From IMG/VR virus record IMGVR_UViG_3300023087_000122, positions 1-22,330 of that record: a stretch of DNA of 22,330 bases; one strand, written 5' to 3'. This stretch comes from a virus. The first letter of the stretch is position 1; each line of letters starts with the position of its first letter. The notes under the pieces were generated by a model. The model saw only the letters and a list, made by a program, of their open reading frames with translations. It was not told the origin of the DNA and ran no database searches. The translations under genes and the position numbers were made by a program. Below, piece by piece: positions 1,920-21,560 of the stretch.

Positions 1920-1928
1920 GGATTGATT

Positions 1929-3170
1929 ATGAAAAAGAGAAACTACTCAGCTGAGACTGTAAGGTCTCTACAGGGTTCGATAAAGATTGAACATACGCTT
2001 GCAAAGTTGGGGGCAAGCAAGCTGCGTAAACTCTTTGAAGAACATGAATACATAAATACATTTGGCGCATATAATGGTCAACAGGCTATTCAACACGTTA
2101 AAGCAGGTTTGCATGCAATTTATTTGTCAGGCTGGCAGGTCGCTGCCTCTCAGAACTCAGCTGGCGAAGTCTATCCTGATCAAAGCCTTTACCCTGTTAA
2201 TAGTGTTCCTGACGTCGTTCGTAATATTAATAACGCCTTTAGACGACAAGATCAAATCGAATATGCCGAGAAGGGAACCGGGTTTTCCTTCGCACCGATT
2301 ATAGCAGACGCAGAAGCTGGATTTGGAGGAGTCTTAAATGCTTACGAATTGGCACGAAATCTTATTGAGGCAGGCGCAGCGGCCGTCCACTTCGAAGACC
2401 AACTCTCCTCAGCCAAAAAGTGTGGACACCTCGGAGGAAAAGTCCTCATCCCTACTGACCAAGCTATTCGAAACCTCAACGCTGCAAGGCTTGCTGCTGA
2501 TGTGGCTGATACTGATACTGTTATCATCGCACGAACCGACGCAGAATCGGCTAAGCTCATGGTCTCTGACCAACACGTCATCGACAAAAAATATGTCAAA
2601 CGATATGGTTCAGCAGGCGGAGCAACAACAATTGGAAAAACGTCAGACGGATTCTACCAAATCGAGGAAGGTCGAGGACTAGAATTTGGCTGTGAACGTG
2701 GTGCAGCGTACGCTGAATACGCTGACCTCGTATGGTGTGAAACTTCTAAACCATGTCTTAAAGAAGCAAAGCGATTCTCTGATGCTGTAAGAGGATCAGT
2801 ACCAGACGCGATGCTTGCATATAACTGTTCACCATCATTTAACTGGCGTAAGTCAATTCCTGGTGATGCAGAATTACGAGACTTCCAATATGAACTCGGT
2901 AAGATGGGTTTTAAATTCCAGTTTATTACTCTTGCTGGTTTCCATGCAACGAATCATGCTATCTTTCAGTTTGCTCGAGCTTATAAGAAAATGGGCATGC
3001 TAGCTTATAGTTATTTGCAAGAAGAAGAATTCGCTGCTGAACAATTTGGCTACACAAGTACGAAGCATCAACGCGAGGTTGGTGTTGGTTACTTCGATCA
3101 AATTGCAAATGCCTTAGGTTCATCATCGACCGCAGCTATGAAAGGTTCGACTGAAGAGGATCAGTTCTAA
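1929..3170 (+). CDS. aceA: Isocitrate lyase (glyoxylate shunt)
   Basis: 413 residues, against 434 in E. coli AceA; only about 20-30 N-terminal residues are shorter. It cleaves isocitrate to glyoxylate and succinate. The catalytic loop KKCGHLGGK is intact with Cys165, the Mg site region ADAEAGFGG is at 126-134, and the conserved stretches YLSGWQVAA, LVWCETS, NCSPSFNW, KFQFITLAG and the terminal GSTEEDQF all match bacterial isocitrate lyase. The KKCGH signature separates it from methylisocitrate lyase. Nothing looks decayed, so it is expected to be active. Start ATG 1929 has only a weak AGGA. The TAATG stop/start overlap begins a run of coupled genes that reaches the alternative oxidase. The middle of the gene is about 53% GC (2341-2460) in AT-rich surroundings, consistent with acquisition from a cell. 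Confidence 0.97.
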   Translation: MKKRNYSAETVRSLQGSIKIEHTLAKLGASKLRKLFEEHEYINTFGAYNGQQAIQHVKAGLHAIYLSGWQVAASQNSAGEVYPDQSLYPVNSVPDVVRNINNAFRRQDQIEYAEKGTGFSFAPIIADAEAGFGGVLNAYELARNLIEAGAAAVHFEDQLSSAKKCGHLGGKVLIPTDQAIRNLNAARLAADVADTDTVIIARTDAESAKLMVSDQHVIDKKYVKRYGSAGGATTIGKTSDGFYQIEEGRGLEFGCERGAAYAEYADLVWCETSKPCLKEAKRFSDAVRGSVPDAMLAYNCSPSFNWRKSIPGDAELRDFQYELGKMGFKFQFITLAGFHATNHAIFQFARAYKKMGMLAYSYLQEEEFAAEQFGYTSTKHQREVGVGYFDQIANALGSSSTAAMKGSTEEDQF

Positions 3171-3505
3171 TGTTTAAGAAATTAGGCTTTGCAATCTATG
3201 ACCTGTACAACTTTTTCTTTAGTTTAAAGGTCAATCCACTGCGCCACATTCCAAACGCATTCACACAATTCATTCTGATGTTTTACTTGTCAGTGATGTG
3301 GACTGTTGTGTTTACTTTGTGGGCAGGATATACCATTTATTTTGGTATCGGTAGTGTAGGGGGACACTTATTAGTAATCGCCGCATTCTTTATTACAGCA
3401 CTAACATTTCAAGATGCTGAAAAGAACGGCCATCTATGGGTAAAGAGATCTCAACCAGATCCGAGGAAAAACAAATGCGTATGGGACTTGGAAAAAGAGG
3501 GCTAG
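3170..3505 (+). CDS. Two-TM inner-membrane protein, unknown
   Basis: 111 residues with two hydrophobic segments at about 34-58 and 62-80, a basic N-terminus and a polar, charged tail of 30 residues. I recognise no family. The start is fused to the isocitrate lyase stop (TAATG at 3168-3172), so the two are almost certainly co-translated. Its position between isocitrate lyase and the alternative oxidase makes a membrane role linked to respiration or transport conceivable, but nothing in the sequence shows it. Confidence 0.75.
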   Translation: MFKKLGFAIYDLYNFFFSLKVNPLRHIPNAFTQFILMFYLSVMWTVVFTLWAGYTIYFGIGSVGGHLLVIAAFFITALTFQDAEKNGHLWVKRSQPDPRKNKCVWDLEKEG

Positions 3506-3699: not shown

Positions 3700-3871
3700 G
3701 CACGCAGCAATTTGTGAAGAAGCACTCGTAAATATCGAGGTATATGAAAAGGCAGTCGGCATCGGTGAGCACCCTGATTTAGTTGGCGCAGTCGAAGAGC
3801 AAGTCGATAAGTTCGTGCATGCCCTTGAAATGGTCGAAGGTGTAGATAAAATCTTGAAAGAAACACGATGA
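3665..3871 (+). CDS. Small helical protein of a marine T4-like phage family
   Basis: 68 residues, highly charged and predicted helical throughout, with a central VGIGEHPDLVGAVEEQVDK segment. I recall very similar short proteins with a GIGEHP motif in cyanophages and other marine T4-like phages, without assigned function. An AGGAG at 3655-3659 sits five bases before ATG 3665. It overlaps the lipoprotein by 35 bases and the alternative oxidase by four (ATGA), so it links the two in translation. Confidence 0.75.
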   Translation: MKDKLLKAVRAKHAAICEEALVNIEVYEKAVGIGEHPDLVGAVEEQVDKFVHALEMVEGVDKILKETR

Positions 3872-4431
3872 GAGATTGGTTTGCAAAATCAATGACGATG
3901 TTCTTTCGGTTCTTTGCTGACACGTTCTTTGCTAAACGTTATGGCCATCGTGCTGTTGTGCTTGAAACTGTAGCCGGTGTTCCTGGCATGGTAGCAGGTA
4001 TGTTAGTCCATTTACGCAGTCTTCGTAAAATGGAGCGCGGCAATGGAACAATGATCCATGAAATGCTAGCTGAAGCTGAAAATGAGCGTAAACATCTTAT
4101 GTTTTTTATTGAGATTGTTAATCCTAATCGGTTTGAACGTTGGTTAATTGTTTTTGCACAATTTATTTTTTGGCACTTTTATCTTATTACTTATTTGATT
4201 TCACCAAAAACTGCTCATAGAATGACACATTACTTTGAGGCAGAAGCAGTCAAAAGTTACACTGAATATCTATCATTGATAAATAAAGGTGAGATAGAAA
4301 ATGTTCCAGCTCCACAGCTGGCCATTGAATATTATAATTTACCAGAAGATGCAAAACTTGCAGACATGGTGATTTGTATTCGTGCAGATGAAGAAAAACA
4401 TAGCAAGGTTAATTTAGAATATTCGTTATGA
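3868..4431 (+). CDS. aox: Alternative oxidase (quinol terminal oxidase)
   Basis: 187 residues. All di-iron ligands of the AOX/PTOX family can be placed: E33 in LETVAGVPGM, E73 and H76 in AENERKHL, E124 or E126 in YFEAEAVKSY, and E175 and H178 in RADEEKH. Two hydrophobic helices match the monotopic membrane patch. The enzyme oxidises quinol and reduces oxygen to water without pumping protons. Bacterial and cyanophage PTOX/AOX proteins are usually somewhat longer at the N-terminus; the catalytic bundle here is complete. The start forms an ATGA overlap with the previous gene. Local composition is very AT-rich (about 22% GC at 4141-4200), unlike the isocitrate lyase, so it looks long adapted to the phage. 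Distinguishing AOX from PTOX needs a tree. Confidence 0.93.
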   Translation: MRDWFAKSMTMFFRFFADTFFAKRYGHRAVVLETVAGVPGMVAGMLVHLRSLRKMERGNGTMIHEMLAEAENERKHLMFFIEIVNPNRFERWLIVFAQFIFWHFYLITYLISPKTAHRMTHYFEAEAVKSYTEYLSLINKGEIENVPAPQLAIEYYNLPEDAKLADMVICIRADEEKHSKVNLEYSL

Positions 4432-4669: not shown

Positions 4670-5434
4670 ATGGCATTTCTAGTTCATCCTTTACCACCCA
4701 TTTCAGTTTACGTTCGTAAAGAATATTTGTATGATTTAGAAAAAGGCCATGGTGAATTTACACCAGGTGTGTGGATTAGTGTTAAAAGTACAATGTATAA
4801 AGCATTATACTTTGAAACACTTCTCACTGATTATGGTGCTTTATACGACAAACTTCCAATCTCAGCGTTTGTTTGGAAAACAGACCACGGAGATCTCCTT
4901 CCTCTCGATGTCCTACAATTGTGGGATTGCTTTGACTACGATATTACTGTAGTACAAAAACCAATATTATCTCGTTGCGAATTCTTTGGTAAAGATAAGA
5001 ATATGCACGCCGGCGAATATGAATTTACAATTGATAATTGCCACAGAGATCATTCTATTTTAAATACTAATTTTAGTGAAGAAGATCCTGAGCACAAATC
5101 ATTTAACGTTATAAGACTAGACAATGGCCAATTTGCTGCTCAACCAAATAATAGAGTTATTTGGCGAGATTCAAGTCTAACGCCTGACAAACTTCTTCAG
5201 CCAGATTTTAAAGTATGTACACAAAACTATGCAGTTGAAACTGAACCAAAGTGGAGTGTTGGTCATACAGATGAGTGGCAATACAAAACAAAAGAAGAAG
5301 AGTCTTTACCAAGTATTAGTGAAAGCTTTAAAGACGATTTAGACGACTATACGCGTAAACGAGAAGATAATGAAAAGTATAGACGTCGTAAAAAAGTGAT
5401 GCGTAAAAATAAAGAAAAGGATAATAAAAAATGA
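4670..5434 (+). CDS. Hypothetical phage protein with charged C-terminal tail
   Basis: 254 residues. The first 170 look like a folded domain of mixed type (VYVRKEYLYDL, GVWISVKSTMYKALYFE, ALYDKLPISAFVWK), followed by a linker and a strongly basic, lysine/arginine-rich tail from about 220 that suggests RNA or DNA contact or a disordered end. Similar proteins occur in T4-like cyanophages and pelagic phages, but I know no function. Eleven bases separate it from the previous gene, and it overlaps the metzincin start by four bases. Confidence 0.75.
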   Translation: MAFLVHPLPPISVYVRKEYLYDLEKGHGEFTPGVWISVKSTMYKALYFETLLTDYGALYDKLPISAFVWKTDHGDLLPLDVLQLWDCFDYDITVVQKPILSRCEFFGKDKNMHAGEYEFTIDNCHRDHSILNTNFSEEDPEHKSFNVIRLDNGQFAAQPNNRVIWRDSSLTPDKLLQPDFKVCTQNYAVETEPKWSVGHTDEWQYKTKEEESLPSISESFKDDLDDYTRKREDNEKYRRRKKVMRKNKEKDNKK

Positions 5435-6951
5435 AAAAAATATTATTTACGCTACTTCTTTTAACAGGATGCGGTGGCGGTGGAGGTGCAGAAGAAACAG
5501 CAGTAATAGCGCCACCTTCTAATCCAACAGAAGGAACTGTTTTAGAAACATCATGTAATGGAACAACACTCATCGAAACAATTGCAGATGGTAACGGCGG
5601 TTCTACTCAACAAGAAACTCCAAACTCAGAACAGTGTGGTTATGTAGAACCACCAACAGAAGGTACATTGCTTGATGAGTTTTGTGAAGATACAACTAAA
5701 GTTACAATTACAGCTGATGGACAGGGTGGTGAAGTACGTTCAGAACAAGAAAAATCTGAGGAATGTGGTTATGAAGGTCCACTTGAGCGTGGCACTCCAA
5801 TTGGCGAATCATACTGTGCGTTAATAACACCAGAAGAAAGATTTTTAGAATTACTTAATACTATTGACAATGTTTTACGTGACGATCTAATACAGGATTA
5901 TGCAGATGGCGAAGGTGGTTCATATTCAGAACGTGTCAAGCCAGTAGCACAAGAATGTTGGGAACAATTACAAATGGAAGAACCAACCGAGTGTCCTACT
6001 ACGTACACAGACACCGGTGATAGTCGTTTTGAATATACTACATGTGATGGTATTAAACAAAAGTCATCAGTAAGTTATCCTTACGATGTAAATAATGATG
6101 GTATTGCTATTATTGATATATTAGTCGCGCTTGATGTTGCCTTAGGTGAAGATGAAGAATTTGTTTTATATCAATTACAACAAGCAAACATTTATTTTGC
6201 TGAATCTAATGTTGATATAAGATTACGCCTAGCAGGAATTTGGGAAGTACAGACACAAAATACTGACTTAAGAGGTGAGTACTATGATTTCTTTTATGGT
6301 AGATCTCCTTATAATGAAATAGATGAAAGGCAGCGCGGTGCAAATGCAGATTTAGCATTTCTCTTTAAAAAGAGACCAGAAAATCCTATTGCATGTGGTG
6401 TAGCTCAGTTAGATGCAACAAATGGTTTAGATTATACTCGAGGTATTTCTCAATGTTTTTATGGTGATACATTTCAAGAAGGCGAAACAACTCGATATTA
6501 TGAACGAGCATCAGAAACATTTGTACATGAAGTTGGTCACTTATTAGGATTAGAGCACGAATGGGATGACGCAATAAATGTACCAATTTTTGAATATGGT
6601 TTTGGATATAACTTACCCGGTTATAATCCAAATGAAAATAATCCAGAATACCAAGGTATCTATGGTGGCTACGGAACAATCATGTCTTATGCTGATCTCT
6701 CAACTGGAAGATTTTCAGATCGTAGCGAAAGAATTGTAATACCTGAAACAGGTAAATCCATAAGCCTAGGAACTAATGGTGGATGTTTTTGTTTAGAACC
6801 TATTGAAGAACAGCCACCGCCCACTGATAATCATGAACACCTACAACGAGTAAGATATATAATGAGTCAGCTGAGTGAGTATGAACACAGCATTGGTTAT
6901 AATGTACTCTTTGAAAAACCTATTGATCAAGAAAATATTTGTTTATTTTAA
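5431..6951 (+). CDS. Exported metzincin-type metalloprotease lipoprotein
   Basis: 506 residues. The N-terminus has a lipobox LTGC with Cys14 followed by a glycine run, so the protein should be a lipoprotein. Three copies of an EGTxL...C...ADGxGG...CGY repeat cover residues 34 to about 177. The catalytic domain follows, with the full metzincin zinc motif HEVGHLLGLEH at 366-376 and a Met-turn GTIMSYAD around M418. Known metzincins digest proteins outside the cell. A phage-encoded, repeat-bearing version might cut envelope or surface proteins during release or superinfection exclusion, or be a virion part; this is inference. The gene starts with an ATGA overlap and ends the chain that begins at isocitrate lyase. 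A promoter follows at 6955. Confidence 0.9.
   Translation: MKKILFTLLLLTGCGGGGGAEETAVIAPPSNPTEGTVLETSCNGTTLIETIADGNGGSTQQETPNSEQCGYVEPPTEGTLLDEFCEDTTKVTITADGQGGEVRSEQEKSEECGYEGPLERGTPIGESYCALITPEERFLELLNTIDNVLRDDLIQDYADGEGGSYSERVKPVAQECWEQLQMEEPTECPTTYTDTGDSRFEYTTCDGIKQKSSVSYPYDVNNDGIAIIDILVALDVALGEDEEFVLYQLQQANIYFAESNVDIRLRLAGIWEVQTQNTDLRGEYYDFFYGRSPYNEIDERQRGANADLAFLFKKRPENPIACGVAQLDATNGLDYTRGISQCFYGDTFQEGETTRYYERASETFVHEVGHLLGLEHEWDDAINVPIFEYGFGYNLPGYNPNENNPEYQGIYGGYGTIMSYADLSTGRFSDRSERIVIPETGKSISLGTNGGCFCLEPIEEQPPPTDNHEHLQRVRYIMSQLSEYEHSIGYNVLFEKPIDQENICLF
5530..5961 (+). repeat. Three protein-level repeats (EGTxL...C...ADGxGG...CGY)
   Basis: Units span about residues 34-75, 77-117 and 120-177. 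Each has a GTxL opening, one cysteine, a central ADGxGG and a closing cysteine. The third carries an insertion of about 15 residues between the first cysteine and ADGEGGSY. Similar units occur in phage tail fibre and adhesin-type proteins. The paired cysteines suggest one disulfide per unit. Confidence 0.8.
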
Positions 6952-9803: not shown

Positions 9804-10039
9804 GTTGGAACTATAGAATTTGTTTTAGATCTAAAAATCGAGGATATGGGTTTTATATCCACGAAGTATATTACGATGATGATGGATCTATCAAATACTA
9901 TACATCAAATCCAGTAAATGTCTTTGGTGATGATCCGGATGATGTTTATCAAACATTAAAAATGATGATGGACTCGCTTGATAAAGATTTACTAGATTTA
10001 GATGAAGTTGATGCTATCTTTGAATTGAAAAAAGTATAA
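9800..10039 (+). CDS. Small conserved hypothetical protein (MSWNYR family)
   Basis: 79 residues starting MSWNYRICF, with FYIHEVYYDDDGSIKYYTSNPVNVFGDDPDDV and a helical acidic end. This is a short beta-rich family seen in many bacteria and phages, function unknown. ATG 9800 overlaps the previous stop as ATGA; the in-frame upstream codon at 9770 is not needed. It is the last gene before a strong terminator. Confidence 0.75.
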   Translation: MSWNYRICFRSKNRGYGFYIHEVYYDDDGSIKYYTSNPVNVFGDDPDDVYQTLKMMMDSLDKDLLDLDEVDAIFELKKV

Positions 10040-10049
10040 ATAAATCTAG

Positions 10050-10077
10050 AAACCTGTCAATTAATTGACAGGTTTTT
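10050..10077 (+). terminator. Strong rho-independent terminator
   Basis: AACCTGTCAA at 10051-10060, loop TTAA, TTGACAGGTT at 10065-10074, then further Ts. The whole 24-nt arm-loop-arm is a perfect palindrome. It closes the 7006-10039 transcription unit just before the tmRNA. Confidence 0.85.
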
Positions 10078-10088
10078 GACAGGTATTC

Positions 10089-10405
10089 GTTGAAACATTG
10101 TAAATAAGAAGTGCGGACAGGGGTTCAAATCCCCTCGCCTCCACCAAAAGTAGTTTTATCACTGTTGACCTGCCCATCGACGGATGAGGGGGCATCACTG
10201 CGCTGAGACTACTTTTGATGGGGGCGTTATGGAATCGACGGGCGACTGAAAACAATGTAGAGAATCAGACGATGAACGCCGTCTGTCAAAACAGGGTTCA
10301 AACAAATAGTTGCAAACGATGACAACTACTATGGAGATGTAGCCTTAGCGGCATGATCTTCCGAGGATTGCTCCCACCTCGTCGCCCAACGGGAGCCTTG
10401 ATTTA
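10089..10405 (+). ncRNA. ssrA: Circularly permuted (two-piece) tmRNA
   Basis: The acceptor piece comes first and the coding piece second. The acceptor 3' strand CGCCTCC-A-CCA (10136-10146) pairs with 5' GGGGGCG (10220-10226), giving a G3-U pair typical of alanyl-tRNA synthetase recognition. The T arm AGGGG-TTCAAAT-CCCCT stands before it. The P2 helix joins ACATTGT (10095-10101) to ACAATGT (10252-10258). The conserved GGAATCGACGGGC follows the 5' end. Pseudoknot PK1 has CAGACG/CGTCTG (10266-10271/10280-10285) and TGAAC/GTTCA (10273-10277/10296-10300), ending 11 bases before the resume codon. A second pseudoknot after the tag has CGAGG/CCTCG (10362-10366/10377-10381) and GCTCCC/GGGAGC (10370-10375/10391-10396). 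The spacer removed in maturation (about 10147-10219) is closed by AAAAGTAGT/ACTACTTTT (10146-10154/10208-10216). The outer ends are approximate. tmRNA rescues stalled ribosomes and tags the unfinished protein. Confidence 0.95.
10312..10356 (+). other. tmRNA tag reading frame
   Basis: Resume codon GCA at 10312 and stop TGA at 10354-10356. The encoded tag is ANDDNYYGDVALAA, to which the charged alanine is added in front. The AND start and the hydrophobic ALAA end match proteobacterial tags that ClpXP and other proteases recognise. The upstream AAATAGTT context resembles the E. coli resume site. Confidence 0.93.
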
Positions 10406-10461
10406 TCATTGGATCACCTTGTTTTATATAATATAATAATAAATTATTAAGGTAAAATACA

Positions 10462-19966: not shown

Positions 19967-20344
19967 ATGGCATACTCAAAGGAAGTATTAGACCACTATG
20001 ATAACCCAAGAAACGTTGGAAAGCTTGATGGAACGGATGAAACCGTGGGAACAGGCTTGGTTGGCGCTCCGGCTTGCGGAGATGTCATGCAGCTGCAAAT
20101 CCAAGTATCGACCAACGGAATCATTGAAGATGCTAAGTTCAAAACTTTTGGATGTGGATCCGCAATTGCATCAAGCTCTCTTCTCACAGAATGGGTCAAA
20201 GGTAAAAGCCTTGAGGAAGCTGGTTCTATCAAGAACACAGACATCGCTCAAGAACTTTCGCTTCCGCCAGTAAAGATACATTGTAGTGTTCTTGCCGAAG
20301 ATGCAATTAAGGCTGCTATTGCTGACTATCGCAATAAGCACTAA
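19967..20344 (+). CDS. iscU: IscU iron-sulfur cluster scaffold
   Basis: 125 residues, full length. The three cluster-ligand cysteines C37, C63 and C106 and the essential D39 are all present at the same numbers as in E. coli IscU. The LPPVKIHC segment (99-106), where the HscA chaperone binds, is intact, and the C-terminal AEDAIKAAIADYR is nearly identical to E. coli. It receives sulfur from IscS and assembles [2Fe-2S] clusters. No iscS, iscA or hscA is nearby, so it must work with host partners. Local GC (58% at 20041-20100) is above the neighbours, suggesting acquisition from a bacterium. ATG 19967 has a weak Shine-Dalgarno. Its last 44 bases overlap the next gene. Confidence 0.97.
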   Translation: MAYSKEVLDHYDNPRNVGKLDGTDETVGTGLVGAPACGDVMQLQIQVSTNGIIEDAKFKTFGCGSAIASSSLLTEWVKGKSLEEAGSIKNTDIAQELSLPPVKIHCSVLAEDAIKAAIADYRNKH

Positions 20345-21007: not shown

Positions 21008-21107
21008 AATAACTTTGTCGATACTGGGGACACAGGTCGACACACCTCTACGCAGAATGGTCTGGTAGAGTATAACAACAACCTTGCTTTTAATTAAGGA
21101 GGCCGTT

Positions 21108-21560
21108 ATGGTATCTAAAGCATTTTCTTTTCCACGTTCACATTTCATTGGGTTTGACCACATTTGGAATGATATCGCTCGTCTTTCAGAGATGTCAGAC
21201 AATAAGCTGTATCCTCCACATAATGTAGTCAAGCAAGATGATACACATTTCTCAGTTGAACTAGCATTGGCTGGTTATTCCAAAGATGAACTCACTGTTG
21301 AGGTCAAAGATGGAATCCTCGTGGTAACTGGTGGCAAAGCCGAAGGAGACGAAGAACGTGAGTATCTCCACCGTGGTATTTCTGCAAAGAAATTCACGCG
21401 TACTTTCCGACTGTCCGAACACGTTGTTGTAGACGGAGCTGACTTCAAAGATGGATTACTCGTTATCAACCTAAGAGTTGAGATCCCAGAAGAGAAGCGT
21501 CCTCGCATTGTCCAAATTGGTAAAACCAAAGGCAAAAAGCAACTATTAACTGAGGACTAA
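21108..21560 (+). CDS. hsp20: Hsp20/IbpA-like small heat-shock protein
   Basis: 150 residues. The alpha-crystallin domain spans about 36-130. Landmarks are YPPHNVVK, VELALAGYSKDELTVEVKDGILVVTGGK, YLHRGISAKKFTRTFRL and ADFKDGLLVINL, closely matching IbpA. It holds unfolded proteins for refolding by host chaperones. Hsp20 genes are a known feature of T4-like cyanophages. ATG 21108 follows AAGGAGG at the ideal distance, the strongest Shine-Dalgarno seen here; in-frame codons from 21084 are not needed. Divergent from the minus-strand exported gene. Confidence 0.96.
   Translation: MVSKAFSFPRSHFIGFDHIWNDIARLSEMSDNKLYPPHNVVKQDDTHFSVELALAGYSKDELTVEVKDGILVVTGGKAEGDEEREYLHRGISAKKFTRTFRLSEHVVVDGADFKDGLLVINLRVEIPEEKRPRIVQIGKTKGKKQLLTED

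Follow-up and report, generated by a model that had tools for sequence, protein, structure and literature searches.

A circularly permuted two-piece tmRNA gene in a T4-like phage, with a late-promoter motif upstream

The stretch of DNA analysed here, termed the window, is a virus contig of 22,330 bases that represents only a 22 kb fragment of a phage genome. Its + strand encodes a RegA-type translational repressor, the product of a T4-like core gene (191-595; PF01818, E 4e-46; phrog_242, E 7.5e-60), and a tmRNA (ssrA). ARAGORN reports a permuted tmRNA spanning 10054-10447, with the tag ANDDNYYGDVALAA, and the Rfam covariance model RF04321 (tmRNA_permuted; built in PMC11915505) matches 10085-10356 on the + strand with 100.9 bits (E 6e-19), above its gathering score of 47 bits. 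The standard tmRNA model (RF00023), run at relaxed thresholds, matches as two halves in swapped order, with model position 1 beginning at 10220 (45.6 bits) and the last model position, 374, ending at 10146 (44.7 bits). This break at 10146/10220 is a direct signature of circular permutation: the 3' tRNA-like piece precedes the 5' coding piece and is separated from it by an intervening sequence, an arrangement that ARAGORN likewise reports as 'Permuted'. A G3-U acceptor pair, a resume codon and a tag frame with an AA-type end are all present, and the conserved RNA spans about 10083-10400. The original prediction, made from the letters alone, had placed a complete permuted two-piece ssrA of a T4-like phage at 10089-10405, and had named ARAGORN and covariance models as checks. 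Both return the gene, the RF04321 match being significant, and with the RF00023 halves, RegA and the T4 genes of relatives described below they bear the prediction out; its coordinates are essentially correct, and the mature ends that it proposed, 10146 and 10220, coincide with the RF00023 break points.

All elements of the RNA are encoded on the + strand. The acceptor piece (10083-10146, its end set by RF00023 model position 374) comprises one strand of helix P2, the T-arm, the 3' strand of the acceptor stem and an encoded CCA end. The 5' gene strand of P2 occupies 10085-10114 (segments 10085-10088, 10095-10101 and 10110-10114), and its partner lies at 10242-10265. The T-arm (10119-10135) is canonical, AGGGG-UUCAAAU-CCCCU, and is followed by the acceptor-stem strand CGCCUCC (10136-10142), which pairs with 10220-10226 and includes the G3-U alanine identity pair (U10140-G10222), invariant in 17 of 17 phage sequences. 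The intervening spacer (10147-10219), for which removal is predicted, is closed by a stem of 10147-10157 with 10205-10215. The coding piece (10220-10400), delimited by model position 1 of RF00023 and by RF04321, holds pseudoknot PK1 (10266-10300; 10266-10271 with 10280-10285, and 10273-10277 with 10296-10300), the tag frame with its stop codon (10312-10356, resume codon GCA, as called by ARAGORN) and pseudoknot PK2 (10362-10396; 10362-10366 with 10377-10381, and 10370-10375 with 10391-10396).

The acceptor stem with its G3-U pair, P2, PK1, tag, PK2 and spacer stem had all been drawn in the original prediction; they are present, and covariation supports them. Across the acceptor stem, T-arm, P2, PK1, PK2 and spacer stem of 17 phage sequences, the window included, pairing is found in 88% of cells and both-sided changes occur in 30 of 61 pairs. 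Doubly changed cells number 98 against a shuffled mean of 28, none of five covariation measures was reached by any of 500 shuffles, and sliding the partners by 1-3 columns reduces pairing to 41-47%. PK2 is paired in 67-78% of cells and has double-sided changes, while the spacer stem, though variable in sequence, shows them in 10 of its 11 pairs. In an independent test, cognate acceptor and coding pieces pair better through P2 than do pieces swapped between phages, and the same holds for a phage's own spacer arms (duplex energy of -11.3 kcal/mol, compared with -3.9 kcal/mol for swapped arms); the mean over all spacers, distorted by the positive placeholder energies of failed duplexes, is disregarded. 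These patterns are evidence that selection maintains the tmRNA as a functional RNA.

The tag has the form ANDDNY-YGDV-ALAA, and both the frame and the ALAA-type end are kept among viral relatives, where 121 of 141 distinct tags end in AA and 94 end in LAA. The earlier suggestion that the tag might confer an altered protease fate is unsupported, because it ends in ordinary ALAA. An ANDN start is found in 36 of 38 permuted bacterial references, and the standard gammaproteobacterial tags among the references in the tree described below are mostly ANDDNYALAA. Long or odd tags are predicted for the viral permuted calls L280, L298, L303 and L317 (e.g., AEKTSKFETVKVSMGKGFRFGSADRAVALA), and are either genuine long tags or ARAGORN frame errors.

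The same locus is found with 99.6-100% identity in three other IMG/VR contigs (L017, L073 and L087). These near-identical independent contigs, together with two T4-like relatives of 160 and 164 kb (G001 and G002), rule out an assembly artefact. The two large contigs have matches to gp23, gp43, gp45, gp55, gp33, TerL and portal, carry the tmRNA about 4 kb after RegA, and have many window genes in common, some at >90% identity; RegA in the window and the T4 core genes in G001 and G002 place the window phage among the T4-like phages. Viral relatives were collected by pattern searches in IMG/VR, which gave 258 permuted calls among 365 fetched loci; when the acceptor piece was not part of the pattern, numerous one-piece ssrA copies from the host side were retrieved as well. 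The gene for gp23 is present in 28 of the 50 large records that the tmRNA patterns retrieved. A blastn search of the tmRNA against the phage collection gave weak tRNA-like or attachment-site matches only. None of the 16 phage records tested yielded SmpB, from which it follows that host SmpB would be needed.

The window also encodes, at 1923-3170, 3170-3505 and 3868-4431, isocitrate lyase (ICL; PF00463), alternative oxidase (AOX; PF01786) and a small conserved ORF, which possibly form a glyoxylate-shunt and respiration cassette. It is common to other T4-like contigs, with ICL up to 95% identical in L315 and G001, and it recurs at 76-82% protein identity in a 6 kb contig (L367, JAAERX010000037.1) that is binned in a gammaproteobacterial MAG and is probably a mis-binned phage contig. 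PMC4053976 refers to ICL in marine viruses. ICL did not reveal the host, the best match being probably itself a phage contig and the next ones 60% identical and spread across many phyla. A large lipoprotein that is predicted to be secreted and bears a reprolysin-like zinc metallopeptidase domain (5431-6951) is found in G001 too, directly following the tmRNA, and a NifU/IscU-like Fe-S scaffold (19967-20344) and Hsp20 (21084-21560) show 92-93% identity with their G001 counterparts. Both of the latter occur in phage C48C1, the nearest named phage by ICL, which has RegA, Hsp20 and NifU as common neighbours; ARAGORN finds no tmRNA in the pieces of the C48C1 genome scanned.

Permuted tmRNA in T4-like phages had been thought undescribed in the original prediction. 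This is wrong, because Buchholz et al. (2022; PMC9004378) reported a two-piece tmRNA from Melnitz, a T4-like phage, and in the same study found permuted tmRNA in 17 of 47 related contigs and 53 two-piece forms among 133 unique phage tmRNAs. Melnitz EXVC044M (a Methylophilales phage; MZ577097, gene 86) is a T4-like (Kyanoviridae) marine myophage whose permuted two-piece tmRNA resembles that of the window in its LAA-type tag and in the motif TATAAATA just upstream of the acceptor piece, and scores 113.4 bits with RF04321. The two differ in the T-arm, which is alpha-type in Melnitz (GGGGGCAGUACCC) but canonical in the window, in the tag (ANDNYVPVDYALAA as opposed to an ANDDNY type), and in the score with the alphaproteobacterial model RF01849, which is 106.7 bits for Melnitz. 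Melnitz also has a glutamine riboswitch, whereas the window has no riboswitch above the Rfam gathering score; none of the glutamine type was found in the record of L241. Among the viral permuted tmRNAs examined, Melnitz stands out by its alpha-type T-arm, and its ssrA (L366, 5985-6437) has TATAAATA upstream despite the early promoter described in PMC9004378.

The tmRNA had further been called alphaproteobacterial in style. With RF01849 the window does pass the cut-off, although marginally (56.3 bits against a gathering score of 50, where a real alphaproteobacterial copy from Pelagibacterales reaches 243 bits), but the alpha style itself is unsupported. Alphaproteobacterial tmRNAs, which exceed the RF04321 cut-off in 263 of 289 genomes, are like the window in permuted order, two-piece logic, P2, PK1 and tag, but their reference T-arm is GGGGGCGGUACCC, whereas the window has the canonical arm that 215 of the 254 viral permuted copies share. 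The canonical T-arm and the ANDDNY...ALAA tag are instead those of gammaproteobacterial one-piece tmRNA (RF00023), from which the window differs in its permuted gene order and spacer-separated halves. In a tree of alpha-permuted, gamma-standard and phage tmRNAs, with the window as leaves L559 and L560, the phage copies, the window among them, form a clade outside the alphas and gammas (UFBoot 96), although such RNA trees, resting on about 190 columns, are weak evidence. The window falls below the cut-offs of the equally permuted betaproteobacterial type (RF01850; 49.2 bits against 84) and of the cyanobacterial model (RF01851; 32.1 against 70). The window tmRNA does not look as if it was copied from alphaproteobacteria, and a beta-like origin of the phage tmRNA is plausible because some relatives exceed the RF01850 cut-off (L204, 162.8 bits; L139, 117.7; L174, 100.5; L163, 98.9; L329, 95.0). 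Beta-type permuted tmRNAs also occur sporadically in one gammaproteobacterial order (loci L550 and L561-L564), in which two of 85 genomes exceed the RF01850 cut-off, with the tag ANDDNFEVALAA, and three further genomes lie just below it.

Upstream of the window tmRNA there is an exact match to the T4-type late promoter motif TATAAATA (10035-10042, + strand), which is the late promoter of T4, with a predicted transcript start at about 10048. Among the 7-mers upstream of permuted phage tmRNAs the core ATAAATA ranks first in frequency, being present in 22 of 101 clustered representatives and in only 3 in the next stretch farther out. Of 180 distinct viral copies, 48 have it at a distance of 50-100 nt ahead of TCCACCA (shuffle mean 5.4, maximum 11), and it stands upstream of none of 38 bacterial permuted tmRNA genes, whose stretches have 49% G+C compared with 37% for the viral ones. 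The motif is found in 10 of 26 large records with gp23 and in 1 of 20 without, and some of these tmRNA-bearing phages have it upstream of gp23 too. In close relatives the predicted late start lies only a few bases from the conserved RNA; the window motif is farther upstream, at -104 from TCCACCA compared with mostly -64 to -93. Between motif and acceptor piece the window has a 26-base palindrome, AAACCTGTCAATTAATTGACAGGTTT (10050-10075), read directly from the sequence and absent from aligned relatives, including the 87%-identical L361. It could be a terminator, an attenuator or a 5' stabiliser, and termination or attenuation of a late transcript at this site could count against late expression. 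The window tmRNA is probably expressed late in infection.

Expression from a sigma-70 promoter early in infection, as proposed for Melnitz, would give the tmRNA a different purpose, namely the tagging of host proteins or keeping hijacked ribosomes running at that stage. Melnitz ssrA was placed after a predicted early promoter (PMC9004378), and CTTGACA and ATATAAT likewise recur among the 7-mers upstream of viral copies; with 132 of 180 phage permuted tmRNAs devoid of the late motif, this makes sigma-70-type expression possible. However, no sigma-70-like site lies on the + strand directly upstream of the window tmRNA, the late motif is the most frequent upstream 7-mer, and Melnitz itself carries TATAAATA just ahead of its acceptor piece, so that we regard early expression as rather unlikely for the window.

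Two readings that would deny the RNA a role in rescue fare worse. Since integration at ssrA is common and fragments of the gene are known from prophages (cited in PMC9004378), the window copy could be an inactive remnant, for instance a host copy taken by a prophage at its integration site, but both halves are complete and covary, the tag is in frame, the T4-like neighbourhood is conserved in the 160-164 kb contigs, and no integrase was found among the window proteins scanned. That explanation is already largely refuted, and we give it next to no credence. A decoy that competes with host tmRNA and inhibits trans-translation has a precedent in mycobacteriophage DS6A, whose tag-less tmRNA-like RNA is reported to inhibit the endogenous tmRNA (PMC11915505). 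The DS6A RNA has no coding part, however, whereas the window tmRNA retains both pseudoknots, its resume signal and a complete tag frame with ALAA at the end, which makes a decoy very improbable.

We therefore favour, with reasonable though not full confidence, a functional phage-borne permuted ssrA that is probably transcribed late, processed into two pieces, delivered by host SmpB and used in ribosome rescue late in infection. A single precursor, probably made mainly late, would start from the TATAAATA promoter at 10035, transcribed by host RNA polymerase with the phage late factors gp55, gp33 and gp45. The stem-closed spacer would be cut out by host tRNA-processing enzymes to leave an acceptor RNA ending at 10146 and a coding RNA starting at 10220, joined through the acceptor stem and P2. 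This RNA would be charged by host AlaRS through the G3-U pair and brought by SmpB to ribosomes stalled on broken mRNA, which would be freed as (A)ANDDNYYGDVALAA is added to the truncated protein, and host ClpXP-type proteases would then receive the tagged product. Of the roles open to the window tmRNA, ribosome rescue is the most likely, and the gain to the phage would be a steady supply of it late in infection.

The gene type is already known, and with a permuted tmRNA of a marine T4-like phage on record, the gene alone is no surprise. What is new here is the apparent late-promoter link and the placement outside the alphaproteobacteria, and these candidate additions to prior work need experiments. 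The value added lies in the evidence for selection, the apparently non-alpha descent in this phage group and the late-promoter motif at many copies, which together turn the vague idea that a phage tmRNA helps or recycles into a timed and testable one, that of ribosome rescue while late genes are expressed. More tentatively, aquatic T4-like phages may possess a two-piece tmRNA lineage of their own, apart from those of alphaproteobacteria, betaproteobacteria and cyanobacteria, which would be driven by a T4-type late promoter with its predicted start at or close to the RNA's 5' end and be delivered into hosts whose own tmRNA is of the one-piece kind, perhaps gammaproteobacteria.
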